Assembly: GCA_028282025.1 (NCBI GenBank)
Contig: JANQIT010000074.1
Location: forward strand, 1 to 64,000
Length of the DNA stretch: 64,000 nucleotides
From: Hwanghaeella sp.
Lineage (GTDB): Bacteria; Pseudomonadota; Alphaproteobacteria; UBA8366; Aestuariispiraceae
Direction: 5' to 3'
In this document: piece after piece, positions 40,490 through 55,365 of the stretch
Layout: each line of letters starts with the position of its first letter
How positions within the stretch are numbered: position 1 is the first letter of the stretch
Program-made: the position numbers and the translations under genes
The notes under the pieces: generated by a model
Database searches by the model: none
The model's input: the letters and a program-made list of their open reading frames with translations, nothing else
Told to the model about the DNA's origin: nothing

Positions 40490-40506
40490 TGGTGCGGTCG
40501 AGAAGA
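40490..40506. repeat. att direct repeat (distal end of island)
   Basis: tggtgcggtcgagaaga, identical to 55279-55295 (3' end of tRNA-Leu). Confidence 0.9.
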
Positions 40507-40590
40507 GACGGACGATGACTCGACACACAGCCCATAAGATACTGAATTTAATCAAATTATTCCACGAAATCTATAACACAAATAATTCAT

Positions 40591-40625
40591 AACATTAGTG
40601 TATAGCAAAAACCAACACTAATGTT
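40591..40625. promoter_or_regulatory. Perfect 11-bp inverted repeat, putative operator
   Basis: aacattagtgt-atagcaaaaacca-acactaatgtt, about 95 bp upstream of the 40720 gene. Confidence 0.4.
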
Positions 40626-40719
40626 GAAACCGAAACGCTCGAATCCCGCTATATGATCTTGAGTCTCTTAAAACAGCGAAAACTGAAACACCGAAGCCAT
40701 CTAAATAGAGGTAATATTG

Positions 40720-41679
40720 ATGGTCGCCGACCTCTCAGAATGCCCGATTTGTGGGTCCAAACTGACGACTCCGTCATCGACAATCGGGATGCTCGATGCG
40801 TATCGCTACGACTGTCCAAACTGCGGGCCTTACGAGCTTACAGGAACCGCAGATCATCTGATAGTACCATCGTTGGCCGGCGCACCAGCAAAACGGCCTA
40901 TTGTCTCACACCATGTTCGGAGGTGGTCTACCGGGTCGGAAGTGCCAAGGTTGGATTGGGATCAGTGCAAAAATTTGCTCGAACGCGGGGAACTGCCGAC
41001 AGTTCATGAGCAGTCCGAGAACCTTATTCGATTCATTGGTGATTCAACGACTGACCCAGGGAAGGGCCACACGTTTAAAGCTTCGAGTGCTCTTGCAACC
41101 GTTGGAGCGCTATCGCCAGAGTCAATTGCGTTTTGCTTGAGCGGCCTTGCAGAAGAAGACTTAGTCAAAGTCAGATCAAGGACACTCGATGGCGAGTCTA
41201 CAGTAGTTCTAACGTTTCACGGCTGGGGTCGATATGAAGAACTTCGCCGTGGTAAAACGTCGGGCACAAAGGCATTCATGGCGATGGCCTTTGGCGATGG
41301 AGTTCTAAATAGCCTGCTCAATGACCATTTCAGGTCGGCGGTGGCGCAAACTGGGTTCCATCTCACAAGGCTTGATGACGCCCCGAAGGCAGGGAACATC
41401 GACAATCGAATGCTGGCAGAAATCCGCTCATCACGCTTTCTAATCGCCGACCTTACCCACGATAATTCGGGGGCATACTGGGAGGCTGGCTTTGCGGAGG
41501 GACTGGGCAAACCCGTTATCTACACCTGCTCAAATGAAGTTTTCAGCGATAAAGGGACGCATTTTGACACGAACCACCATCAAACTGTTCTGTGGGATGC
41601 CGCTAGCCCTGAAGCTGCGTGCGACTTGCTTAAGGCCACGATCCGGAACACGTTCCCAGATGCCAAACAGGAGGACTAA
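40720..41679 (+). CDS. Zinc-ribbon plus nucleoside 2-deoxyribosyltransferase-like (TIR-like fold) protein; candidate defence protein
   Basis: CPICGSKL...CPNCG zinc ribbon; AFMAMAFGDGVLNSLLNDHFRSAVAQTGFHLTRLDDAPKAGNIDNRMLAEIRSSRFLIADLTHDNSGAYWEAGFAEGLGKPVIYTCS. ATG 40720 with gagg upstream. Confidence 0.8.
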   Translation: MVADLSECPICGSKLTTPSSTIGMLDAYRYDCPNCGPYELTGTADHLIVPSLAGAPAKRPIVSHHVRRWSTGSEVPRLDWDQCKNLLERGELPTVHEQSENLIRFIGDSTTDPGKGHTFKASSALATVGALSPESIAFCLSGLAEEDLVKVRSRTLDGESTVVLTFHGWGRYEELRRGKTSGTKAFMAMAFGDGVLNSLLNDHFRSAVAQTGFHLTRLDDAPKAGNIDNRMLAEIRSSRFLIADLTHDNSGAYWEAGFAEGLGKPVIYTCSNEVFSDKGTHFDTNHHQTVLWDAASPEAACDLLKATIRNTFPDAKQED

Positions 41680-41724
41680 AAAAATCAGACCAGAGCAGAG
41701 TTGCCCCTACTCCGGCCCATTGCA

Positions 41725-41889
41725 CTACGCCTTATCCGCTAGGCGGACACGACGCTTTATAGGACGTCTCTCAATGCGCCCGCCCCCGGCAGTGCGATAG
41801 ACAATCCGCCCTGAGTCGTATTCCTCGTCGTCGCGTTTACCACCGCCGCCTTGGAGCGCCTCAAACCTCTTCTGGTCAAAACCAGCCAC
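41725..41889 (-). CDS. Small basic protein (54 aa), translationally linked to terminase
   Basis: GTG start with aggaggttaggt upstream: MAGFDQKRFEALQGGGGKRDDEEYDSGRIVYRTAGGGRIERRPIKRRVRLADKA*. Absent from ORF track because it is <60 aa. Confidence 0.6.
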   Translation of the reverse strand: MAGFDQKRFEALQGGGGKRDDEEYDSGRIVYRTAGGGRIERRPIKRRVRLADKA

Positions 41890-41891
41890 AC

Positions 41892-44186
41892 CTAACCTCC
41901 TAATTTCTCTGCAATTCGATCTTGGAAACTGTCAAACGTCATCCCGTGTCGAACGTGATGACCACCTTGTTCGTATTGTGCGAGTTGTGCCTTTAACTGC
42001 TCAATGAGCAGCGCAAGGTCCGACGAAGGAAGCCCCATAGCGACTTCATCGGCATGGGTCTCTATCACCGCGTTCAAGCGCTCCCTTAGCTCCTCAGCGT
42101 TCTCATCTTGAGCCGCCCAGGCGTCCAACATGTCGTCTGGAACCGCGCACATACGGATTGGGAGCTTTCGAAGCCGCTCAGCGCTGAAGCGAGCACTTGC
42201 AATGTAGGCTGCTGGATCTGCGCACAGGATGTCCTTGAACGCGGCTACGGCGTAGCTGAGAGCGTCTACAATGTCGTCGTGCTTGAGCCGCCGCCCATCG
42301 TAATTGATGCCAGTAAGTTGGTTTACAAATTCGATACCGCTATCTGGTGACGTTAGCACCGCCTTGCAAACAAACACTCGTTTCGAGGCGAAGGCCGGAA
42401 CCAATGTCCCAATGATACGCGCACCTTTCTTTTGCTTCCCGGTTGTGACCGGCTCCACATTGAGTGGATAGCCCCTAGCCGCCAGTTCACGCGACAACTG
42501 GCTCGCAAACAGACCATCACGCTCTTGTTCCACATAAACACAGTTCGCCCTGTGCAAAGCGATCAAACGTGCGCACTCCTGGATAGATGACTGAACGGTT
42601 TCGGTTCTGACCCCAACAGCCTGTCTAACGATGACAGCGCCCCCGCCGGTCGATGATGCTATTGCCAGCCCAATCGCGTCACCTTTACCAACAAGCCCAC
42701 CCGCAGGGTCAACAGCCGCTACTGTCAAAGTGTAGGGACTCGAGTCACTTGAAACCTCAGACACGCCCCTCCAGTTGTCGTCTTTGGCGGCATTTCCCTT
42801 AGAAAGCCCAGAGATCACTCCACCCCCACCTCTCAGCACAATCGGTGCTGTCGGTAACAGCGGATCGAGATCGACCACACTTAGTGACGATATCCTGATG
42901 GGCCGCTCATCGGTCGCGGCTTGGGACAGATCAATGCGCCAGTGCAGGGCGAAGAGCCGCGCGGACATATTTCGCTTTCTTCCAGCAATATCGTCTGCGC
43001 TAAACCGATCCGGCCAACGGCTATGGAACACCTCCTGGCCGTTAAGAACGTCGGACTGGAAAAGACATGCTCTATGCACGTCCCACTCCCCCGACTCCAC
43101 AAGGCGTCCATACAGAGACATTTGGGACTGGGGTGTGCCCAAAACGATGATGCGGCTTTGCGGTCCAGGAACGATGACATTGTGAGCCTCAGAAATTTGG
43201 TCCGACAGCTTGTCGATTGCCTCAGCGCTGTCATGCTTTGGGGTCTCCACATCGTCCAGGATGATTAGGCGTGCACGCTTACCTGTGATCTGTCCGGTGA
43301 TACCGATTGATCGGAAACTCACAGACATCCCAAGTTGCCCGGTCGCGGGCCCAACGACGAATTGGGACATGTTGTCTGGGCTGTCGTCTGCAGGTGTCAG
43401 CTCACCAAGAACGGGGGAACGCTCAATGAGATCTCGAACCATACGGAGCATATCGCGCGCATGGCTTTCACCTTGTGACACTACGAGAATCGTCTCGTTC
43501 TCTGGGTCCCGCCACAACCGCCAGAGTGCGTAGAAGGCTGTGAAGGTGGACTTTGCAGAGCCCCTTGAGGCCAAGACGAGAATGTTGCGGCACTCGGACA
43601 TTAGCCCACTCACGATGTCATCATGGATCGGCCCAGGATCACACCAGCCGGTAACCAAGGGTCTCACCACCGCTCGGACGAAAACCCAGAAAGCTATCGT
43701 CTCATCACTCATTCGGCCAAAGCCAGCGGGATCAGTCTTCAGCCGCGTTGCGGCTTTGATTGCCGTCAGTAGTTCGTCCTGACGCACTAGATCTGGCCGC
43801 TTGGAGCCAATCAGCTCTGTTAGCTCGGCCACTGAACCCGACACCTCTTCAATGAAGCGCTCTATGTTCGATTCCGGTTTTGCTGTATACGTAGATACCG
43901 AGGCAGGGACTCCGACACTTGTCGACCACTTTTTGTTTTCACGTCCGATAGCCTCGCCGTTTGGAGCGGTCGCTGATTTTCTTCCCTGACACTGGCGACA
44001 CGTCGTGTGCCACCCAGTCTCCGAAGACTTCAACAGCGCAAAATTTTCGTGCCCCAAAGATTTAGTCGATCCGCAAGAAACGCACTTGAAGGGCTGACCT
44101 AGGTGAGCTTCGGCAACTGGCCCCGGAACGAGGGCTCTGGACTTTCTCTGTGTGCCTTTGAATTGGCCTTTTGTTTCTTTCGTCAT
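41892..44186 (-). CDS. terL: Phage terminase large subunit (T7 gp19-like) with N-terminal zinc-binding module
   Basis: NILVLASRGSAKSTFTAFYALWRLW Walker A; RLIILDDVETPKH Walker B; VAAVDPAGG...RRLKHDDIVDALSYAVAAF nuclease domain; N-terminal CVSCGSTKSLGHENF...CRQCQG. Confidence 0.88.
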   Translation of the reverse strand: MTKETKGQFKGTQRKSRALVPGPVAEAHLGQPFKCVSCGSTKSLGHENFALLKSSETGWHTTCRQCQGRKSATAPNGEAIGRENKKWSTSVGVPASVSTYTAKPESNIERFIEEVSGSVAELTELIGSKRPDLVRQDELLTAIKAATRLKTDPAGFGRMSDETIAFWVFVRAVVRPLVTGWCDPGPIHDDIVSGLMSECRNILVLASRGSAKSTFTAFYALWRLWRDPENETILVVSQGESHARDMLRMVRDLIERSPVLGELTPADDSPDNMSQFVVGPATGQLGMSVSFRSIGITGQITGKRARLIILDDVETPKHDSAEAIDKLSDQISEAHNVIVPGPQSRIIVLGTPQSQMSLYGRLVESGEWDVHRACLFQSDVLNGQEVFHSRWPDRFSADDIAGRKRNMSARLFALHWRIDLSQAATDERPIRISSLSVVDLDPLLPTAPIVLRGGGGVISGLSKGNAAKDDNWRGVSEVSSDSSPYTLTVAAVDPAGGLVGKGDAIGLAIASSTGGGAVIVRQAVGVRTETVQSSIQECARLIALHRANCVYVEQERDGLFASQLSRELAARGYPLNVEPVTTGKQKKGARIIGTLVPAFASKRVFVCKAVLTSPDSGIEFVNQLTGINYDGRRLKHDDIVDALSYAVAAFKDILCADPAAYIASARFSAERLRKLPIRMCAVPDDMLDAWAAQDENAEELRERLNAVIETHADEVAMGLPSSDLALLIEQLKAQLAQYEQGGHHVRHGMTFDSFQDRIAEKLGG

Positions 44187-44246
44187 TTGTCTCCAAAATG
44201 AGAGAAGGGAGCCGCAGCCCCCTCATTCTCAACGTCCTGATCTTCC

Positions 44247-44786
44247 TCAGGTCTCTCTTTCTTTTTTGCTTATGTCGCGTAGGTCCTTGCCCAACTGTAA
44301 GCCGGAACCGATGGCGTTGAACAATGCCCCCCGGCTCGAGGCTCTGGACTGTTCCCGCAGCCCTTGGATTTGGGCCAAGGTTCCCAGCTGGGACGACTTC
44401 GACTGGGCTTGTATGCGTTGAACTTCGTTCTCCGCGTTCCGCTCAATCCGACTAATGTCTATTCCTTCATTGGCACCAACTTCGACCACGAACGGGGTGA
44501 GGTTAGCGATTCCCATCTCACCAGCAGCGGCCTGGATGGTGGCGAGCTCCTGGTTTGCTAAACGTTCGCGATCTGAGATTTGTTCGGTCTCAATTTCACG
44601 AACCTCTCGTTGGAGCCTTTGGTTCTCTTGAACAATGAAGGCATGGTTTTGGTTTGCAATAGCCGCCGACCGTTCTGCGGCCTTGGTCTGCTGACGTGCT
44701 TGGGCAAAGCCGTTCGCAGTGCTAGCCAATGCTGAACCAGCGGCCAGGACTTTTCCAAGTGTCAGAGCCTCAAGTCCTGTGCACAT
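44247..44786 (-). CDS. T7 gp14-like internal virion (core) protein
   Basis: AAGSALASTANGFAQARQQTKAAERSAAIANQNHAFIVQENQRLQREVREIE...AAAGEMGIANLTPF resembles T7-like internal virion protein B; strong RBS ggaggt. Confidence 0.65.
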   Translation of the reverse strand: MCTGLEALTLGKVLAAGSALASTANGFAQARQQTKAAERSAAIANQNHAFIVQENQRLQREVREIETEQISDRERLANQELATIQAAAGEMGIANLTPFVVEVGANEGIDISRIERNAENEVQRIQAQSKSSQLGTLAQIQGLREQSRASSRGALFNAIGSGLQLGKDLRDISKKERET

Positions 44787-44792
44787 ATAAAG

Positions 44793-45686
44793 TTACCTCC
44801 GAATTACTTGGGCATCACGATAGCGGGACGGGTTATTCCGCTTGAGTGTGTCCCATGCAGATTTTTCAACTTCGATCTTACGACCCTCAACCATAACCAA
44901 GACAGTGTGCGAGGAGCACTGGCCAGTTTCTCGACGGCCTCCTTCAAGCCCGGGCAGAGTTGCTGTTGAAGTCACATACTTTGCGGCCCAGCTCTCAAAC
45001 GTGCTCATCTGGCCTAGCCGGACCACCTCAATTCCAACGCTGTAGACTTTGTCGGAACCGTACTGCTGGTGAGCCCAGTGCCAGAAACCATCGAAGTCAG
45101 TCAGCCCAGCAGATTGCTGAAGGTGTTGGTTTATGGACTGCTCCACGTCGTGTACCACTGCTTGGGCCTGAGCGACGAACTCCGACTTGCCGATGCCGTG
45201 GGCATCTGCCAATTCGTCCACTCCTGACGGCAGTCGAGTCCGATCAAGTAGAAACTCAGACATAGCCTGTGTACCTGCTCCTTTGCCAAGTTCGTTGTCG
45301 ATAAAGGGGAGCCAGTTGCCCAACGCATCTGCTGTTTCAGAGGATACTTCTAGATCACCGCCCTGGGCTTCTTGGTTCGTGTCTGCTGTGTCGGCAGAAA
45401 AAGTCTCTTCGAGCAGCGTGTCCTCATAGAGGCCCTCAGTGTTCTTGCGTATGAACCCGCGATTGGCGGCAGCGTCGACGGTCATCTCAATGCCTTTGAC
45501 CGTAACAAGGTCGTCCGGCTGTGGAGCCCTACCACCCAAAGAGCTGCCATTTCGGCCAACTGCGGTAGACATAATCGGACCGCCGTTTTGAATGGAAGTG
45601 TGGCAGGGATCGAGCAAGTGACGTTCACCTCCCGACTCGTATCTGGAGACCCGGACTTCCGGCTCCGACGTTTCAAGCTCTGACAT
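44793..45686 (-). CDS. Unknown island protein, possible structural or scaffold-like protein
   Basis: Starts MSELETSEPEVRVSRYESGGERHLLDP, RBS caggag; ends 6 bp before gp14-like start; two VxVxGxxxxVxxxA motifs near N- and C-termini. Confidence 0.6.
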   Translation of the reverse strand: MSELETSEPEVRVSRYESGGERHLLDPCHTSIQNGGPIMSTAVGRNGSSLGGRAPQPDDLVTVKGIEMTVDAAANRGFIRKNTEGLYEDTLLEETFSADTADTNQEAQGGDLEVSSETADALGNWLPFIDNELGKGAGTQAMSEFLLDRTRLPSGVDELADAHGIGKSEFVAQAQAVVHDVEQSINQHLQQSAGLTDFDGFWHWAHQQYGSDKVYSVGIEVVRLGQMSTFESWAAKYVTSTATLPGLEGGRRETGQCSSHTVLVMVEGRKIEVEKSAWDTLKRNNPSRYRDAQVIRR

Positions 45687-45775
45687 ATTTTCTCCTGTGT
45701 TGTCAGCGTTCGATGTAAAAAAAAGCGGCCCAATTAGGACCGCCAAATCTAGTTGTCTGTATTTTGATAGGCCGG

Positions 45776-45976
45776 CTACGCTGCTCCAATAAGAGCATTC
45801 AGGTTTCCGACCACGGTTGCCTCCCGCAGCGGGCAGTGTGGACTCTGAACCTCCCAGGATTGCTCCCCAGACATTACTTCTGAGGATGGGCCCAACTTCT
45901 TCATGGTGATCTCTCCTGCACCATCAATTCGGACTACATATGTGTCCGAGGCGTGGTGGTGGATGAATTTAGGCAT
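45776..45976 (-). CDS. Unknown small island protein (66 aa)
   Basis: MPKFIHHHASDTYVVRIDGAGEITMKKLGPSSEVMSGEQSWEVQSPHCPLREATVVGNLNALIGAA; RBS aagga. Confidence 0.55.
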   Translation of the reverse strand: MPKFIHHHASDTYVVRIDGAGEITMKKLGPSSEVMSGEQSWEVQSPHCPLREATVVGNLNALIGAA

Positions 45977-46313
45977 CGAATTTCCTTTTCTGTTTGGGTT
46001 TGCTAGCCTTACGTTTGGACTGCAACAAACGTCCGAGAGACGCACGTAACCACCCCGACATAATTCAGGTAATTAGGTGCTCTGAGGTAGATTGAGTGGA
46101 TCTGTTGGGCTTAAGGCGGACCTAGAGTTTTTCTCAAACACTAATTGGATTGACCGACACAACGACCCCTCTGAGGATCAAATTTAGGTCCGTCTATTGA
46201 GTGGCTCTTAATTTGCGGCCTTGCCCCGCCGCGAATAAAGCACAAATCCATTGAGGGGGTATAGTCACCCTAAGAACAGTATAAGGGCTACAGTACCCCC
46301 CTTAGTGTCTGAA

Positions 46314-48095
46314 CTAGGCCGCCTTTGAGAAGGCTTTCGCTTGGCCGCATTTCACGACCGACACACCAAGGTCATACATACTATCGATGACCTTCTCCTT
46401 CTTCGTCAGCTTCCTGAAGTTCTCTTTGGATACACCGAGCCGACCTCTAGCTACTGGAAATGTCAGCGTTTGTCCGGGACTAAGGTCGGCCAAAGTGCGA
46501 ACCAAACGGTCCGCTTGGGTAGTACCTTCACCAGCCATACGCGTACCAATTGGAACCCAAGTCTGAACTTTAGCGCCTGGAAACCATTCAGGAAGTCTGT
46601 GTCTTATTCCTGTATTCGGCGCAGCCATAACCCAAGCCTCACACGCACCACAATCTCCACCATTCGGCAATCTAACAGAGGCTCTGCACAGTGCTTGCAA
46701 GATGTGGTGTCCGTGCTCACCGAGACGGACTTCAGCGCGTTCTTCGGAGCTTACCTCTTCGTCGGAACTCAGCTCCGCAGAAGCCCGTTTCATAGATTCA
46801 TAGTTGTATTCCGGATAGAACAGTGTTCCGGCCAGAATGACATTGGGAACGTCCAAGTGTTCGTTGGTTGCTGTGTGGCGGCCCCAGTTGAGAAATGAGA
46901 CATTACTCGGTTGGTTCAAGAGTCTCTTGAGTTCCTTCGGGACATCATTGATACCAATGTTGGAACGACCGATCTTGTTCTCCGCCTTGTGGTGCACAAC
47001 GAGCCATTTTTCATTCGGTTTAGTGTTTATTGTGTTCGCTATGGCTTGAACGTATTCCGCAAACCTGTCCGGCTTACGCCATGCGGTCTTTGAACCAGAA
47101 ACTGGCCAAAAATTCACAGTCAGATTTCTGTACATCTTCCGAGCAGAGGGCAGCTGACACGCGACACCTAGCCGTTCTTGATCTGCGTACTGTTGACGAA
47201 TCCTACCCGAGGCATCCGTAACCACGACCGGGTATATGTCCTTAGGCAGAGTTGGTCTGTAGTGCAGAGCAGCTGTGTCACTACCGTGCCGGCAAACACG
47301 GGTCTGCTTGCCGGAAATCGCGGCAAGATCTAACACCATTTCTCTACCGAGATCATATCCAAGGGCGCAATCATGATAGTCTTCCACATGTGTGTGGTGG
47401 AGAAGGCGGACCCAATCCGGGAAATCAAACTCCGTACGGTCTTTCCACCCCTTGAGCGCCGTTAGGGCCTCAGCTAAAGCCTCTGCCGCATCAGACTCTC
47501 CGAACTTGGAAAGTAGTCCGATGGCCTCCCCAAGGGCCTTCTTGTTAGCGTTGATTGGGCGGGTCGTAGAGAACGTTTCATCCCATATGCGAAGCGACCG
47601 ACAATCGCCCTCGAAGTAGAGTTCATGTGCCTCGCGTAAGGGCCGACTTTTGGTCAACCTTCGGACCCGTTCGTGGGTGGTCAACAGGATCGGCTTGGAG
47701 TCTAAAGCGTCAGATTTTTCCTCGGACGTCCAAAAACCGACCCTAGTGCCACACACACGCATACCTACAATTTGGTCGCGTACGTCGCGCGCTTGGTCAA
47801 TCCGCTCCACACAGACGAGAGCCCCCGGGTGCGTCGAATTCGCGTGGGCTTCGTCCAGCGCCGCCAAGAAACTGACAATGGCGGTCGTTTTGCCTATACC
47901 TGGGTCCAGCGTGGCCAAATAGGCTAGAGGCTTTGCCCGCCCATGCGCAGCGTCGTCAAAGGCCGTCAGGAGCGCTCCAAGTGCAGTCCACTGATCCTCT
48001 GAGAGGGTCGCCCCTCTTGTGTCCATAGACTGTTTGAGACGCCAATGCGCGGCACTGGCGACTTCGGGTAACTGTACCGCCAATTCTTTCTCCAA
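46314..48095 (-). CDS. SF2/P-loop helicase-like protein (possible island replication protein)
   Basis: YLATLDPGIGKTTAIVSFLAAL Walker A; RSLRIWDETFSTTRPI Walker B; C-terminal ILQALCRASVRLPNGGDC motif VI-like; TTG start. Confidence 0.65.
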   Translation of the reverse strand: MEKELAVQLPEVASAAHWRLKQSMDTRGATLSEDQWTALGALLTAFDDAAHGRAKPLAYLATLDPGIGKTTAIVSFLAALDEAHANSTHPGALVCVERIDQARDVRDQIVGMRVCGTRVGFWTSEEKSDALDSKPILLTTHERVRRLTKSRPLREAHELYFEGDCRSLRIWDETFSTTRPINANKKALGEAIGLLSKFGESDAAEALAEALTALKGWKDRTEFDFPDWVRLLHHTHVEDYHDCALGYDLGREMVLDLAAISGKQTRVCRHGSDTAALHYRPTLPKDIYPVVVTDASGRIRQQYADQERLGVACQLPSARKMYRNLTVNFWPVSGSKTAWRKPDRFAEYVQAIANTINTKPNEKWLVVHHKAENKIGRSNIGINDVPKELKRLLNQPSNVSFLNWGRHTATNEHLDVPNVILAGTLFYPEYNYESMKRASAELSSDEEVSSEERAEVRLGEHGHHILQALCRASVRLPNGGDCGACEAWVMAAPNTGIRHRLPEWFPGAKVQTWVPIGTRMAGEGTTQADRLVRTLADLSPGQTLTFPVARGRLGVSKENFRKLTKKEKVIDSMYDLGVSVVKCGQAKAFSKAA

Positions 48096-48550
48096 AGCTG
48101 TGATTAAAATATCCTGTGGGCGCGGCCCGCCCTAGCGGTTGAGACCACCAGAGCGGGGCGTGAACAGACCGCACAGGAGATTGAGGCTCCGTACTGGCCG
48201 GAACCTTCGCGGTGGCTTCAGGCACCATCGCAAAAAAAGGGTGTAGTCAATCCTGCCGGAACTTAGCTGATCGCTTGGTGAATTCTTATCCGTCTGTTCT
48301 CTCAGGCGGATGATCTGGTCTACGACTTCGAGACCGTTCTTCTGTTGAGCTGGGGCCCTCAGGTGTTACATGACAGAGGAAAGCGCGAGCAAACACCTCA
48401 GAACTAGCGGGTGGCTGCGTGTCTAGGTGTCTCGTCGTGTTTCCCTGGTTCGGTCACCAGACCTAAGTCTCCGAACAGAGGTACTACCTCCCTCTAGGTG
48501 AAGCCTTTTTCTGTTACCTGTCCTGCACCTGACGAAGGTGGCTTTAGCAC

Positions 48551-48844
48551 CTAGTTTTGCGGACCGAGATTGTCTGGGCGAGACGAACGCCTCAGGTTCG
48601 CGACCACTGGGCCCGCAACGACCCAAGGCCTCAAAGGATTCAAAACCTCGTGGCTTATGAAAACCGCCACGCCTTCTAACCCGGTCAGATATCCTTCAAT
48701 GTACTGGCATTCCGCTTCGATGACAGGCGCGCCCCAAGCCACGCCCGGAAACTCTCTCTCAAGCGATGCTCTTATGCCAGCCGTAGCTTGGATCAGAGCA
48801 TGGGCTGACTTTTCGCTTGGGAACTGGATAACGTTGTCGGACAT
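48551..48844 (-). CDS. Unknown small island protein
   Basis: MSDNVIQFPSEKSAHALIQATAGIRASLEREFPGVAWGAPVIEAECQYIEGYLTGLEGVAVFISHEV; RBS aggag. Confidence 0.6.
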   Translation of the reverse strand: MSDNVIQFPSEKSAHALIQATAGIRASLEREFPGVAWGAPVIEAECQYIEGYLTGLEGVAVFISHEVLNPLRPWVVAGPVVANLRRSSRPDNLGPQN

Positions 48845-48913
48845 TTTTGGTCTCCTAGTCGGCACCTAAACCACTTGGCATCGCTGGACTTCAATTACAG
48901 TAGTTGGTTCTTG

Positions 48914-49585
48914 CTATTTTTCGGCAGCCTCCAAAACGCGCTTCACTTGTTGCGGGTGCCACACCCCACCACGGGCAGACGGAATGCCGCGTGCCGTCAG
49001 CTCCGATGCGATGGCCCGAAGAGACGACGCCCCACCCTCCCGAATGTGGTTGATCACATGCATTAGGTCTGCCGACCGCTCCTGCGCTATTTGGCGGACT
49101 TTAGCTGAACCCAAGGCCCTCCCCTTCGCGGCCGCCTCGGCAGACAGATTCGCGGGATTGCCCAGAACCCTACCCCGCCGCTTGGCGGCTTTAAGTGCGG
49201 CCTTGGTGCGTTCCGAGATGGCTTTGCGTTCTTGCTGAGCGACGACAGCCATAATCCCAACAGTCATCTCGTTGGCGTCCGGCATGTCTGCGGCAACGAA
49301 GCGCGTCTTGCTGTTCTGCAGCGTCAATAGGAATGCTGCATCACGAGACAGCCGGTCCAGCTTTGCTACCACTAACGTCGCATTGTAGAGACGACAAACA
49401 GAGAACGCCTCGGTCAACCTCGGACGATCATTCTTTCCACCGCTCTCAACCTCGGTGAACTCTGCCGCCATAGACCAATTCCTGCCTCTGACGAGGTCGG
49501 TGACCGCAGACTTCTGGGCGTCTAACCCAAGCCCCGACCTACCCTGCTGGTCCGTCGATACGCGATAGTATGCAACGTATTTCAT
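48914..49585 (-). CDS. Serine recombinase (resolvase/invertase family)
   Basis: MKYVAYYRVSTDQQGRSGLGLDAQKSAV; VVAKLDRLSRDAAFLLTL; QQERKAISERTKAALKAAKRRG; C-terminal HTH SSLRAIASELTARGIPSARGGVWHPQQVKRVL. Confidence 0.93.
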   Translation of the reverse strand: MKYVAYYRVSTDQQGRSGLGLDAQKSAVTDLVRGRNWSMAAEFTEVESGGKNDRPRLTEAFSVCRLYNATLVVAKLDRLSRDAAFLLTLQNSKTRFVAADMPDANEMTVGIMAVVAQQERKAISERTKAALKAAKRRGRVLGNPANLSAEAAAKGRALGSAKVRQIAQERSADLMHVINHIREGGASSLRAIASELTARGIPSARGGVWHPQQVKRVLEAAEK

Positions 49586-49930
49586 GTGTCCCAACCCTCT
49601 GAACGTCCATTTACTGCCTTGTGACAATCATATTGAGTCGGGTGAGTCCGCTTGCAAGGGAAATTTGTGTGCGATGGACCGCCGCTTTGGGCTCATAATC
49701 TGGCAGACACCAGGGTCGATTCTAGAGGCCACTGATGCGCGGCAAGCCCTGCGCCCTTGCACACTAGGAAGATCTCCACGAGTGAACCCAGCGACTCCAG
49801 AATGGCCTCCTGTGGCCCCCTATTCGACCAGCATTGGGGCGGGGGGAGGGGTCCGGGGGAAAATCAGAACACGCGCTGGGGAAACTGACATCGGGCACAA
49901 GTAGATTGGCACCCGGGGTGGCCAATGAGG

Positions 49931-50977
49931 TCACTTCCCGGGACCCAAACGCTCGACTATGGAAACAACAGATTGGTCGAGTGGTGGCAAGCCAAGGGAC
50001 AGGCCCAGCGAATAAAGATGGGCCACAGTCAAGATTCCCAGACCACCTTGGACCACTTTTCCGTAAGTGCTATTCGCCACCGCTCCCAGAAAGGCTTTGA
50101 TGTTGGCTCTCGCCGCCCTGGCGCTTTCCTCGAACTGCTTGTCAGAGGACTCGACAGAAAGCAGATCATTCAATCGCCGCAGCTCGTCACGTACTTCTCG
50201 CAACAGTGCGGTCAACCTTTCGGCGTCCTCAACGTCCCCCCAAAGCGGGTCCGCGTTTGTTGCTCGGTCATGCAGCCGCCCATCGTCATAGTCATCGATC
50301 AACCTAACCAAAGCTGACACTAGCAGTTTGTAATGGGCCGGGTTTGCTCTAATCCTTGCAGCGACCGACTGGTCTCTGTCCCGCCACGTGACTTTGGCTT
50401 CTACCTGCTCTTTGGAAAAGGGTGCGATTTCCCCTACTTCGCCAACGACCGGTTCCTCTTCAATTACGTTGAGAACTGAGTCGTCTTCTATCGACCCGTC
50501 TAGGAGTCCCGCACCTTCAACTAGTTTAGAAAGAGCGGACGAATGATCACCGTTGTCATCTACTTGGAAACCTTGGCCCCTCATGAATTGGACGGCTTGG
50601 TCCAAGTACTCATCGGAAGGATACTCAATCCAGATTGCGTCTGTTGACAAGTCAGTTGCCCCCGAGCCGCTTCCCCAACTCGACAGGCTTGCTGACTCAT
50701 TGTCAGCCCTCGGCACTTCAACCCGAACCGGGTAACTGCTCCCAACACAGGACTTATCGTCTACAACGGCAACTACTGATACAGTGGCCCGACTTCGCCA
50801 GGGGTTTAACGGAAGCTCCTTTTCAAGGGCCCATGACGCAGCTTTGTCAAAAGCTATATGTGCAATCTGCCTCGCGACATATTCGTTTGGAGCAGTCACG
50901 CGACAGCGCCCTTTCCGGATACTGCGCTCCAAGTCAGGATGGTTCAGGTCAACAGGCTCAAGAGTGTACTTCGGCAA
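49931..50977 (-). CDS. Unknown island protein with C-terminal hydrophobic segment
   Basis: 348 aa; TTG start; coiled region DAERLTALLREVRDELRRLNDLLSVESSDKQFEESARAARANIKAFLGAV then VVQGGLGILTVAHLYSLGLSLGL. Confidence 0.55.
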   Translation of the reverse strand: MPKYTLEPVDLNHPDLERSIRKGRCRVTAPNEYVARQIAHIAFDKAASWALEKELPLNPWRSRATVSVVAVVDDKSCVGSSYPVRVEVPRADNESASLSSWGSGSGATDLSTDAIWIEYPSDEYLDQAVQFMRGQGFQVDDNGDHSSALSKLVEGAGLLDGSIEDDSVLNVIEEEPVVGEVGEIAPFSKEQVEAKVTWRDRDQSVAARIRANPAHYKLLVSALVRLIDDYDDGRLHDRATNADPLWGDVEDAERLTALLREVRDELRRLNDLLSVESSDKQFEESARAARANIKAFLGAVANSTYGKVVQGGLGILTVAHLYSLGLSLGLPPLDQSVVSIVERLGPGK

Positions 50978-51183
50978 CCTTTCTGGCCCCCCTCCTTACA
51001 ATGCAACAAGCCCAAACGCGCACATTCAGCGACAAAAGAACTGATGGAGTATTGTTTCGCGGCCACTAACTTCAAGCCACTCATCGGCGACCTAAAATCT
51101 AGAACCTCAGTTGGGCTAGTTCACACTTTCCCGCTAAACTTGTCGAGCCGCTCGTCAGCTAATACGGTTTTCACTGCCATAAA

Positions 51184-52377
51184 TTGAAATGTGAGACAAA
51201 ATTGAAAATCGAAGATGTAACTCTGTTGGCTGGACTCGGACTGATTGGGGCGGTTTTTATTCTGTTCTCCAAATACAAGACTGCAAGGAAAGAGTTAGCG
51301 AGCACTTCACATCGAGCACTGATTGTGTCCCGCCGATTGGATGAGCTTGGTCCTCAGGCAAACAAGCTTGAGCGTAGGATTTACGAACTTGAGAAGGCGA
51401 TCCAAGCAAAAGACCTTATGTATGAGCGCCTATCTGCGGAAGATGGCGACCCGCTTCTAGGCATTGCCTCACTGGTCGCGGACCACGCAACTCGCCAATT
51501 TGAATACTCTGCAAGATATCTTGAGACCAAACAGCGTCCTGCACGCAAGGAAGCTGAGAGAATACGCACACTCAAGGAAGAGACCAGGGAGCATATCAAG
51601 AGGCTCAAACTGATGGAGTACAAGTACGAGTATTTGCTGGGGCTCTTTCCCGACCTCGCACTATACGCCGACGATGTTGAATCGCTGCGCAGTCTCTCCG
51701 AGGCGATAAGTGTAACCGAAGCCGAAGCTGAAGCCGACCGAACACGAAACTACCTTTCGCCTGAGGAATACCAGAAACTCCCTGAACGAAAGCGCAATCA
51801 GCTCGCTCTTGATCGCTACATCCGAGGTAAAAAATCGACGTGGCAGATTGGTCGTGACTATGAGCTCTTCGTTGGCCACCTCTACAAACAGGAAGGCTGG
51901 GAGGTACAGTACACGGGAATTGAGCACCGGCTCATGGACATGGGCCGTGATCTTGTCGCGAAGAATGGTGCGGAAATACATGTGGTACAGTGCAAATACT
52001 GGTCCCGCGATAAAGTAATCCACGAAAAGCATATATGCCAATTGTATGGTACAGCGGTCCAATACCAACTCGCGAATGGTGTCGAGGCCGTGACGCCTGT
52101 CTTTTACACCAACATCGAACTATCAAGAACAGCTCAAGAGTTCGCCGAACACCTGGGCGTCCTCGTCTTTCGAGAGGAACTAGGCGATTTCCCACGCATC
52201 AAATGCAACATCAATCGCGGAGCCGACGGAGAACGTGTCAAAATCTATCACCTTCCAATGGACCAGCAATACGACAGTACAAAGATTGACAAACCCGGCG
52301 AGTTCTTCGCGTTCAAGGTCAAAGACGCAGAGCGATCAGGCTTCCGACGCGCGCTCCGATGGCGAGGCTCCAAATGA
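51184..52377 (+). CDS. Membrane-anchored coiled-coil restriction endonuclease-like (Mrr-type) protein
   Basis: N-terminal TM TLLAGLGLIGAVFILFS, long coiled coil, C-terminal Mrr-like domain GRDYELFVGHLYKQEGWEVQYTGIEHRLMDMGRDLVAKNGAEIHVVQCKYW (D...QxK catalytic motif). TTG start; exact start uncertain. Confidence 0.8.
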   Translation: MKCETKLKIEDVTLLAGLGLIGAVFILFSKYKTARKELASTSHRALIVSRRLDELGPQANKLERRIYELEKAIQAKDLMYERLSAEDGDPLLGIASLVADHATRQFEYSARYLETKQRPARKEAERIRTLKEETREHIKRLKLMEYKYEYLLGLFPDLALYADDVESLRSLSEAISVTEAEAEADRTRNYLSPEEYQKLPERKRNQLALDRYIRGKKSTWQIGRDYELFVGHLYKQEGWEVQYTGIEHRLMDMGRDLVAKNGAEIHVVQCKYWSRDKVIHEKHICQLYGTAVQYQLANGVEAVTPVFYTNIELSRTAQEFAEHLGVLVFREELGDFPRIKCNINRGADGERVKIYHLPMDQQYDSTKIDKPGEFFAFKVKDAERSGFRRALRWRGSK

Positions 52378-52441
52378 CTTAGAGGCCGTTCGCCAATCAT
52401 TCGGTCCAATTGGTAGCTGATATGCGACATGGGGGCGTCTT

Positions 52442-53884
52442 ATGGACGTAGCTGTCCTCACATTGAACAGTCGGGAAATCTCGATTGTAGTGTGGACTAT
52501 TCTGTATCTGGTATTGTCGGTATCAGTCCCTCTCTTCCGACCAGTAGCCATCTCTTTAGGTCAATTCCTCTGGTCCGCTCGCAGCTACATCCTTCATAGG
52601 CGTGTCCGGAGAGCGATCTACGCCGCTGCGCTGTACAACCTTGCAGTGGTCTGGCTTCTGCACAACGTCGGTCTGTGGTTCCTCTCGGACATCAAAGCGA
52701 CCACATTGTGGTTCCTAACGGTCGTGTCCGTCGCAATGTTCCGCGTTCAGAAGCGGCTTGGCGACGTACCCGATATCCGCGAAAGCGTGAAGGAGCTTGC
52801 CGCGATCACAGTGGTGCTCGAATTCATCGTAGAGTTTCATACCTTGCCGCTATGGGCCGAAGTGATAGCAACACCTGTCATCCTAGGCATAGTGCTCTTC
52901 TACACTCTGCTCAGAAACGATGCCGACTTGAAAACCGCTAAGGGCGTAGCTCGCTGGGTACTCATTGGTTACGGATTAGTCGTCCTGGCTAATGGCGTGT
53001 ATCATGTATGGGAAACCCCCGGTCTCTTCTTCCAAATCTCCACGCTCAGGGATTTCCTCTTGATCCCAGTCTTGAGCGCCTTGTTTCTTCCTTTCCACTT
53101 CCTTATGTCGACTTTGGTCTCGTTCGAGATTGCCATCAGGGATCTACAAGGACTTATCCCCAATCTTTCGCTTCGCCGGTATACGGCCTTCAAGGCGTTG
53201 AGGGCGTTCTTTTGGCGGACCGAGTTACTAAAGTGGTGGATGATCAGATTTCGTAGGAATCCACCAGAGGACCGAAACCAAGTAGACGTCTCCATTGCGA
53301 AGGTACTCGCGCTGGCCAACGCTTCCGCCGATCCTCCAGCAGTCGATCCTAGTCTAGGCTGGTCTCCCTATTGGGCGGGGAAGATATTCGTCACGGAAGG
53401 TCTTCAGACAGGCTGGTACGATGAACTCGCGGGGCGTGAACATTGGTTCTCACACTCAGAATATCTAAAGTTCGGTCCAGGCATCGACGTGAACCACATT
53501 ACCTACCACGTCTATGGCAATGAGGAAGTGGCCCGTTGCTTGAAGCTTTTCTTGCACATCAACGAACCCCACGACGAGTCCGAGGCCCTAGCGGTGTTCG
53601 AAGCCCTAGCCCACAAGCTATGTCATCAAGTGACCTCCCAAGAGCTACCAGACGCTATCGACTTCAAGGCGCTGTTCCGAGACACCGTGAAAGCGCAGAT
53701 AGGCGACTATGAGGTAGTACTCAACCACTTTTCCTCCGAGTGGGACGGCCGCAAGGACTACGAGATGCGGTTCTCGGTCCGCAAACCTCCATCCACCGAA
53801 GAGGAGATGATTTGGCGATGTTCGCACGGAGCCGGAACCTCAAACGACGAACTCATCAAATCGCTCAACGGGTTTATCGATTGA
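52442..53884 (+). CDS. Multi-TM membrane protein with soluble C-terminal domain, operonic with Mrr-like nuclease
   Basis: Several hydrophobic segments in N-terminal half (ISIVVWTILYLVLSVSVPLF, ATTLWFLTVVSVAMF, WAEVIATPVILGIVLFYTLL, FLLIPVLSALFLPFHFLM); 64 bp after the nuclease gene. Confidence 0.7.
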   Translation: MDVAVLTLNSREISIVVWTILYLVLSVSVPLFRPVAISLGQFLWSARSYILHRRVRRAIYAAALYNLAVVWLLHNVGLWFLSDIKATTLWFLTVVSVAMFRVQKRLGDVPDIRESVKELAAITVVLEFIVEFHTLPLWAEVIATPVILGIVLFYTLLRNDADLKTAKGVARWVLIGYGLVVLANGVYHVWETPGLFFQISTLRDFLLIPVLSALFLPFHFLMSTLVSFEIAIRDLQGLIPNLSLRRYTAFKALRAFFWRTELLKWWMIRFRRNPPEDRNQVDVSIAKVLALANASADPPAVDPSLGWSPYWAGKIFVTEGLQTGWYDELAGREHWFSHSEYLKFGPGIDVNHITYHVYGNEEVARCLKLFLHINEPHDESEALAVFEALAHKLCHQVTSQELPDAIDFKALFRDTVKAQIGDYEVVLNHFSSEWDGRKDYEMRFSVRKPPSTEEEMIWRCSHGAGTSNDELIKSLNGFID

Positions 53885-53911
53885 ACCTCTCTTGACTCTC
53901 GCAGTGAAACC

Positions 53912-55201
53912 CTAGGAAACCCTCCTCAGCACATCCTTTGAATACACCTCAAAGCCCATCTTAATCCGCTTCTTTTCCGGTCCGCTCGAATACACGTCAG
54001 TCAGCAGCTTCCCGGTCTTATGGCCGATCATGCGTTCTTTTAGCGTCGGCTCTATGCCCTCTAAGTTCTCTAGAACTGTTCCGGCCCATCGGCGAATGCT
54101 GTGTAGGTCCAGGCCCTGCTCCTTGGCGTTCGGTAGGGCCTCGGCAAGGGTCGCCCTCATGCGCTTCGATAGAGAATGCCCAAGCTTGTGGTCCTGACCA
54201 CCGGGCCTTAGTTCCTCGAAGAGTTGGTCCTCAGGTTGTTTCCCTCCCGTACGTCGATTGAGCACCTCTTGTGCCCGCTCAGAAGGGAAGAACACGACGC
54301 GGTTCCCCGCCTGTGTCTTCGCGTCCCGGATATGAACCTCACCATTTGGTTGGACGTCTTTCACCCGCAGCTCGCAAATCTCGTTTAGGCGGCAGCCGCT
54401 CTCTATTAGCAACAACCCGACGTCGTACTGCTTGGGGCTCTGGTTCCAACGGCGCTCAAGAGCCTTGTAGAAGATCGTCAACTCCTTGTCGGTAAAGGCC
54501 CGCTTCTTCTTTGCCGCCTTCGGGAGTTCGCGAGCCAAGTCAGCGAAAGGCGAGATCCCCTGGCAATACTCTCGCTGGCGTGCCCACTTCCAAAGCAGGT
54601 TCATAGCACCAATGTACCGCCCGAGGGTCTTGGGAGAACGTCCTGATTTTTCCAGGTGATCGCTGAGCCACTTTGAGGCCGTCCTTGGCCGGACCTTGTT
54701 CATCATTAGGTCGCCCATAGCTTCTATGAACAAGCCAACAGCATGGCGACGGCCGTCTATGGTTCCCGGCGTAACCTTCCCTTGAAGAGACGCCAACCAC
54801 TGATCAGCCACCACCGATATGGGTACGCCCTTGCCGGTGGCGATATCAAAGTATCGCTGCGCTTCTGCCTCATGCCCTTTGTCGGCTATGTCCTGTGCAC
54901 GGTCGTCTATGATGCCCTCATAGATGTCCCTTAGGTCCTCCCTGGGCTCGTCCAGCAGCACGCCAGCGGCCTCTTGGGCCTCCTCGGTGCCGCCCAGCTT
55001 TGAGGCCACTAGTTGCTCAACCTCCCGAATGATCTCATCCAGCTTGGCGTGCTTCCTGCGCCGGGCCTGATCAAGGTCTCGGGTCTTCAGCGTTCTGGAT
55101 ATGGAGTCTTTGCCGACGATCTTCCGCCATTTGGTCGGAACTACGTACCGGACATACCAAGTATGCCCCTGCCGGTAGATGTTCTGGGTCATATAAGACA
55201 T
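53912..55201 (-). CDS. int: Tyrosine-type site-specific integrase
   Basis: LLLIESGCRLNEICELRVKDV; HSIRRWAGTVLENLEGIEPTLKERMIGHKTGKLLTDVYSSG (R..HxxR..H..Y); adjacent to tRNA-Leu. Confidence 0.95.
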   Translation of the reverse strand: MSYMTQNIYRQGHTWYVRYVVPTKWRKIVGKDSISRTLKTRDLDQARRRKHAKLDEIIREVEQLVASKLGGTEEAQEAAGVLLDEPREDLRDIYEGIIDDRAQDIADKGHEAEAQRYFDIATGKGVPISVVADQWLASLQGKVTPGTIDGRRHAVGLFIEAMGDLMMNKVRPRTASKWLSDHLEKSGRSPKTLGRYIGAMNLLWKWARQREYCQGISPFADLARELPKAAKKKRAFTDKELTIFYKALERRWNQSPKQYDVGLLLIESGCRLNEICELRVKDVQPNGEVHIRDAKTQAGNRVVFFPSERAQEVLNRRTGGKQPEDQLFEELRPGGQDHKLGHSLSKRMRATLAEALPNAKEQGLDLHSIRRWAGTVLENLEGIEPTLKERMIGHKTGKLLTDVYSSGPEKKRIKMGFEVYSKDVLRRVS

Positions 55202-55278
55202 GTAAGCCCCACGGATCTATAACACAATCAGGTGTTATAGATTTCGCAAGACTTTGATTTTACTGAATAAATCAGAAA

Positions 55279-55295
55279 TGGTGCGGTCGAGAAGA
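55279..55295. repeat. att direct repeat (tRNA end of island)
   Basis: tggtgcggtcgagaaga, identical to 40490-40506. Confidence 0.9.
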
Positions 55296-55365
55296 CTCGA
55301 ACTTCCACTCCGGTTAAGGAACAGCGACCTCAACGCTGCGCGTCTACCAATTCCGCCACGACCGC
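55279..55365 (-). tRNA. tRNA-Leu(GAG), CCA-encoded; 3' end is the island attachment site
   Basis: Reverse strand GCGGTCGTGGCGGAATTGGTAGACGCGCAGCGTTGAGGTCGCTGTTCCTTAACCGGAGTGGAAGTTCGAGTCTTCTCGACCGCACCA; anticodon stem-loop CAGCG-TTGAGGT-CGCTG; paired acceptor stem. Confidence 0.95.

Follow-up and report, generated by a model that had tools for sequence, protein, structure and literature searches.

The closest working analogue of the protein described in this work, although unrelated to it in sequence, is SNIPE (PD-lambda-1). In the part of PMC13190303 that deals with its architecture and action, SNIPE is a TM-anchored protein, composed of a membrane helix, DUF4041 and a GIY-YIG nuclease, which cuts phage DNA during injection; it turns toxic when the transmembrane segment is removed, and the tether has been shown to spare host DNA. 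Zorya and Kiwa are presented, in the section of PMC12904381 concerned with them, as systems that couple a membrane sensor to a nuclease or a DNA-binding protein. A different arrangement is that of Streptococcus thermophilus phage TP-J34, whose exclusion gene ltp lies within the lysogeny module according to the portion of PMC3952083 that treats this gene. As for Mrr domains, the only role in which Mrr_cat is mentioned by the relevant passages of PMC9122126 is that of effector domain in STAND NTPases, and those of PMC9519451 describe an Mrr domain paired with a beta propeller. Searches of the open-licence literature turned up no account of an Mrr family anchored in the membrane.

The stretch of DNA analysed here, referred to as the window, comprises 64,000 nucleotides from Hwanghaeella sp. 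(contig JANQIT010000074.1). It contains two intact ORFs at 51184-52377 and 52442-53884; they lie on the same strand and 64 bp apart, as had been reported in a preliminary description that read them as a two-gene defence module. Like SNIPE, as far as this system is depicted in the part of its source cited above, the first product follows a one-gene plan with an N-terminal membrane helix, a helical middle and a C-terminal DNase predicted to lie in the cytoplasm. Unlike SNIPE, its nuclease is of the Mrr/PD-(D/E)xK type and not GIY-YIG, DUF4041 is absent (no Pfam match at E up to 1), and the family displays an extra C-terminal sunset-like domain as well as split TM-zinc-ribbon forms. Alignment of the nuclease family with six SNIPE relatives by hhalign gave a probability of 5.4%, and membership in SNIPE was ruled out by this value together with the lack of DUF4041 and GIY-YIG. 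Relatives of SNIPE, several of them partial, were detected in 18/299 genomes of a phylum draw at E up to 0.001. That the window nuclease works like SNIPE is nevertheless plausible by analogy.

The PADLOC scan covered seven proteins of the window, including both genes and their neighbours. It returned one match to protein 1 (E 0.049) and no fitting model for protein 1 or protein 2. Across the 59-member nuclease family, the matches were weak and scattered (best 3.8e-5, with no more than 3/59 members per model), including PD-Lambda-1 at 0.0038 in one member, mREase_IV in 3/59 and, weakly, ZorD1 in 3/59. The window protein shares with Zorya, whose ZorD has an Mrr-like nuclease, a putative action near the membrane, but among the seven window proteins there are no ZorA/ZorB motor genes, and PADLOC matched neither ZorA/ZorB nor the Kiwa partners KwaA/KwaB.

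The nuclease and its relatives

The first gene (51184..52377, plus strand) encodes a 397-aa protein consisting of a TM segment, a helical stalk, a helical domain, Mrr_cat and a sunset-like domain. The ORF begins with TTG, and a start at a second in-frame TTG (51202) would also retain the membrane helix. This helix is the single hydrophobic segment of the protein (residues 11-29; 51214..51270, plus strand), assigned by hydropathy and charge only; the net charge is +4 in the following 20 residues and +1 in the preceding 10, a pattern that predicts a cytoplasmic nuclease domain. An AlphaFold2 model of the protein based on 48 relatives has high confidence (mean pLDDT 88.7, pTM 0.60) and contains one continuous helix from residue 9 to 85, which together with the hydrophobic segment is in keeping with the N-terminal TM and long coiled coil proposed before. 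The Mrr_cat (PD-(D/E)xK) domain occupies residues 224-323 (51853..52152, plus strand; Pfam E 6.4e-10, above the curated cut-off), and the motif cited in the preliminary description, residues 254-273, proved indeed intact. Residues E227, D252, G254, D256, Q269, C270 and K271 are identical in 59/59 aligned rows, so that the motif is not due to chance; several residues of the sunset region are also invariant in 59/59 rows, and those that we take to be catalytic are assigned by reference to the Mrr family. The C-terminal 'sunset'-like domain itself (residues 339-390; 52198..52353, plus strand) matches in this protein at E 9.3e-5, below the model's curated cut-off, while 48/59 members of the family reach E 0.01 or better. 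The literature searched contained nothing pertinent on a 'sunset domain', and Pfam found no DNA-recognition domain in the window nuclease. The best solved folds for the nuclease model were AF1548 (1y88, 2.0e-5) and MspJI (2.1e-4). Overall, the anatomy of the family is coherent and firm, and from its sequence protein 1 would be an active nuclease.

Relatives were collected by scanning 84,980 species, each represented by a single genome, where 99 stretches fitted the pattern and 62 loci were confirmed, as well as IMG/VR (8 nuclease loci out of 69 stretches) and plasmids (4 nuclease records), amounting to 74 loci in total. Members occur in Bacteroidota, Bacillota, Chloroflexota, Verrucomicrobiota and others, and the nuclease is a member of a widespread, so far uncatalogued family with many phyla. 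Within the window's own class, 2/385 genomes match the nuclease at E 1e-30 or better, corresponding to the window's own and one fragment, and phage records yielded no match to either window protein. The alignment comprises 59 rows, the window and 58 relatives, after omission of 16/74 near-duplicates, frameshifted or partial sequences; two of the 59 rows, which are short, were left out of the tree. The window nuclease groups with a sequence from Robiginitomaculum (Pseudomonadota; support 86/75). Both belong to a 13-row clade (96/96) otherwise made up of ten Bacteroidota and one viral contig, a placement that suggests horizontal gain. At the Hymenobacter loci (L002-L005, L033, L036, L038-L040), an ORF of 341-617 aa lies about 50 bp or less upstream of the nuclease, perhaps as another local pairing; the annotated 415-aa protein at these loci weakly resembles a type II restriction enzyme (5.1e-5).

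The N-terminal membrane helix is present in 42/59 aligned rows. Among the 17 rows that lack it, eight have a TM-bearing ORF at most 60 nt upstream, and a ninth, L061, follows a zinc-ribbon ORF whose reading frame contains a hydrophobic stretch ahead of its first common start codon. Seven helix-less members (L043, L045, L053, L057, L061, L063 and L067) stand directly 3' of a small gene combining a membrane helix with a topoisomerase-type zinc ribbon, and L051 and L069 directly after other small TM proteins; the Pfam model Zn_ribbon_Top1 was reached by 5/99 scanned neighbours. No TM partner was found for 8/17 of these rows, at least one of which (L028) is cut by a contig end. The small membrane-helix/zinc-ribbon gene and the adjoining soluble nuclease probably represent a split version of the nuclease, and membrane association, fused or split, is the rule across the family.

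The position of the relatives was assessed at 67 of the 74 loci, the near-duplicates L003, L004, L005, L038, L039, L040 and L076 having been dropped, with neighbour genes taken from crude longest-ORF models and with HTH and integrase HMMs iterated from seeds. Repressor-like HTH genes fill 22/120 slots at -1/-2 vs 6/482 at distances 3-8 (p 1e-11), and integrases or recombinases 15/125 slots at +1/+2 vs 7/482 at distances 3-8 (p 1e-6). This order is polar, with integrases or recombinases upstream in 1/120 slots and HTH genes downstream in 4/125. A separate Pfam scan, covering 189/243 neighbour proteins (the remainder being mostly short ORFs or nuclease pieces), agrees (Phage_integrase 8/90 and 6/99; HTH_3 8/90 and 9/99) and also places many relatives among ordinary metabolic or chromosomal genes. 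At 11/67 loci the nuclease has a repressor-like HTH gene on one side and an integrase or recombinase on the other. Ten of these loci are represented in the tree, seven from Bacillota, one from Melainabacteria and two from viral contigs, the lysogeny pattern being concentrated among Bacillota relatives. The 13-row clade of the window contains single lysogeny elements only (an integrase adjoins L056, and an HTH gene is near L071). In the setting of those 11 loci the family resembles Ltp of S. thermophilus phages, a membrane-tethered exclusion factor of the lysogeny module which, in the portion of PMC3952083 describing it, differs in being a lipoprotein outside the membrane that blocks injection and in having no nuclease. 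The window copy differs further from Ltp in that it is not in such an arrangement: no HTH gene adjoins it, and the integrase is two genes off on the opposite strand.

The integrated element and the second gene

Both window genes are carried as cargo by a 14.8 kb element inserted at a tRNA-Leu(GAG) gene (55279..55365, minus strand). A 24-nt att repeat at the 3' end of the tRNA (55279..55302) recurs as a direct repeat on the far side of the element (40490..40513; 88% identity over 24 nt). In the same-genus genome G001, the matches to the left flank and to the tRNA are 1,489 bp apart vs 15,383 bp in the window, so that the site is unoccupied there; the G+C content of the island is 53.8% vs 60.5-60.8% in the flanks. 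The two genes occupy one edge of the element on the plus strand, beside a tyrosine integrase (53912..55201; Phage_integrase 3.6e-7) that is encoded, as are the island core genes (41892-50977), on the minus strand, an orientation already pointed out in the preliminary description; the tRNA-Leu and att boundaries, as well as the sunset-like domain of protein 1, did not figure in it. The element also encodes a terminase large subunit of T7-like type (41892-44186; phrog_38) and, at 44247-44786, a product resembling an internal virion protein (phrog_805), with no capsid, portal or tail gene recognised among the scanned ORFs of the element (40490-55302), which may be read as a decayed podovirus prophage or satellite. 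At its far end, a plus-strand gene for a 320-aa protein (40717-41679), which matches a TIR-effector model of PADLOC weakly (1.6e-4) and has PHROG relatives of unassigned function, is a second candidate cargo gene. A 348-aa gene (49931-50977, minus strand) adjoins the nuclease gene in divergent orientation, with no Pfam or PADLOC family match above cut-off. A promoter and terminator scan across the two genes detected nothing exceeding shuffles.

The second gene (52442..53884, plus strand) starts with ATG, is intact and encodes an uncharacterised multi-pass membrane protein of 480 aa, with at least four strongly hydrophobic segments and a soluble C-terminal part, in keeping with what had been noted at the outset. 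Nothing above cut-off was found for it in Pfam, PADLOC, PHROGs or NCBIfam, and its AlphaFold2 model (pLDDT 44.6, from a two-row alignment) is unusable. Its homologues, which align across most of its length, are rare and scattered, appearing in two Arcobacter and two Salmonella plasmid records, one viral contig and the genomes G002, G331 and G495. Scans of viral collections with this gene gave one partial homologue. Counting the window's own, the protein was detected in 2/14 genomes of the family, 2/43 of the order, 3/385 of the class and 5/398 of the phylum, three of the last by the C-terminal domain alone. That domain stands by itself in short proteins of G554, G591 and G634, which look secreted on reading their N-termini. 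At L086, L087 and L088 it lies in short proteins with signal-like N-termini, whereas in the multi-pass protein it is expected in the cytoplasm. A DNA search of E. coli genomes with two of the homologues gave no match, and that of Salmonella had none among phage records.

Searches with profiles of both families found both in the window alone. The second gene occurs at 0/74 nuclease loci, for which 3.4 to 15.2 kb of DNA per locus was available, and the nuclease at 0/6 distinct loci of the second gene, two of whose contexts (L079 and L085) are shortened by contig ends. The two-gene defence module initially proposed was rejected because the families do not co-occur elsewhere, and the suggestion of a membrane-disrupting abortive complex found no support. 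We judge the pairing of the two genes to be a coincidence of cargo, and the 480-aa protein is probably an independent cargo gene rather than a partner of the nuclease.

Possible functions of the nuclease and its neighbour

The best explanation, to which we give about even chances, is that a membrane-tethered nuclease attacks incoming foreign DNA at entry. The element would then carry one relevant cargo gene, encoding a DNA nuclease that its N-terminal helix and long stalk keep on the cytoplasmic side of the inner membrane. This enzyme would attack foreign DNA, most likely that of phages, during the passage of such DNA through the membrane. The tether, by keeping the enzyme away from the nucleoid, would spare host DNA; the helical or the sunset domain could perhaps recognise injection proteins or keep the enzyme inactive, and the element would exclude its competitors through the nuclease, with the 480-aa neighbour as a separate cargo gene. 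Both the defence role and the entry step as its target are our inference, favoured because of the intact Mrr_cat domain, the family-wide membrane helix, the position relative to HTH and integrase genes, the att-flanked element and the precedent of SNIPE. Of the original proposal, an inner-membrane nuclease cutting DNA at entry thus stays plausible by anatomy, conservation and the position of relatives, while the membrane partner does not. Against an attack at entry stand the location of the window copy outside the repressor-integrase arrangement, the restriction of the lysogeny pattern largely to Bacillota relatives, the 8/17 TM-less rows for which no TM partner was found and the many ordinary chromosomal neighbours.

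Mrr proteins may be ordinary modification-dependent enzymes, as MspJI is, and the window protein could accordingly be a conventional type IV Mrr-like restriction enzyme, attached to the membrane by chance and deriving its specificity from DNA modification and not from the site of entry. The Mrr_cat domain with its intact motifs, the presence of MspJI among the PDB fold matches and the 3/59 rows that touch mREase_IV are in line with this, but we consider it rather unlikely, given that Pfam finds no separate DNA-recognition domain, that the protein possesses a membrane helix and stalk and that most members keep the helix or replace it by an adjoining TM gene, of which such a mode has no need. 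The occurrence of relatives on plasmids and at varied chromosomal places might instead point to a role in maintaining the element, in processing DNA at the membrane or in excluding plasmids during conjugation rather than in phage defence. This appears improbable, as the enriched order of repressor, nuclease and integrase coincides with the site of the known exclusion gene in S. thermophilus phages, as located in the cited portion of PMC3952083.

The two remaining alternatives concern the multi-pass protein. Its strand and the 64 bp gap, along with the pairs of membrane sensor and nuclease or DNA-binding protein known from Zorya and Kiwa (PMC12904381, in the section mentioned above), would fit a single system in which it detects phage at the membrane and thereupon activates the nuclease. 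Such a system is very improbable in view of the absence of any other locus with both genes, of the membrane helix that the nuclease itself has and of the company that the second gene keeps elsewhere, where it follows an unrelated AAA ATPase or a P4-like primase or lies among genes that are not defence-like. The protein might also be an independent one-gene defence or membrane effector sharing the cargo slot, which is doubtful although less so than the foregoing alternatives, and is compatible with attack at entry by the nuclease. A PADLOC candidate is near 2/6 distinct loci: the Arcobacter homologue comes directly after an AAA ATPase with similarity to PDC-S06 (3.6e-70), and that of Salmonella is near integrase pieces with a helicase ('Helicase' model, 3.3e-31) about 3.5 kb upstream. 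A third locus adjoins the P4-like primase, named by reading its sequence. These contexts are offset by two other homologues among apparent housekeeping genes, in a sarcosine-oxidase-like region and among ribosomal protein genes (both likewise named by reading), and by the lack of a family match and of a usable model.

Taken in its broadest form, and held tentatively, at somewhat less than even confidence, our proposal is that the relatives constitute a class of membrane-tethered Mrr nucleases, widespread and so far uncatalogued, fused and split, often located in prophage lysogeny modules and cutting DNA at injection, as a second, independently evolved location-based answer to the problem of self and non-self solved by SNIPE. 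If so, cleavage at the entry site by a tethered nuclease would not be peculiar to SNIPE and would have emerged on two or more occasions from nuclease folds that are unrelated. It would be apparent from the split forms that selection acts on the tether itself. The question would then follow whether removal of the tether turns a defence enzyme into a host-killing one. Likewise, the lysogeny-module setting would represent superinfection exclusion achieved by cutting the DNA and not by blocking it.
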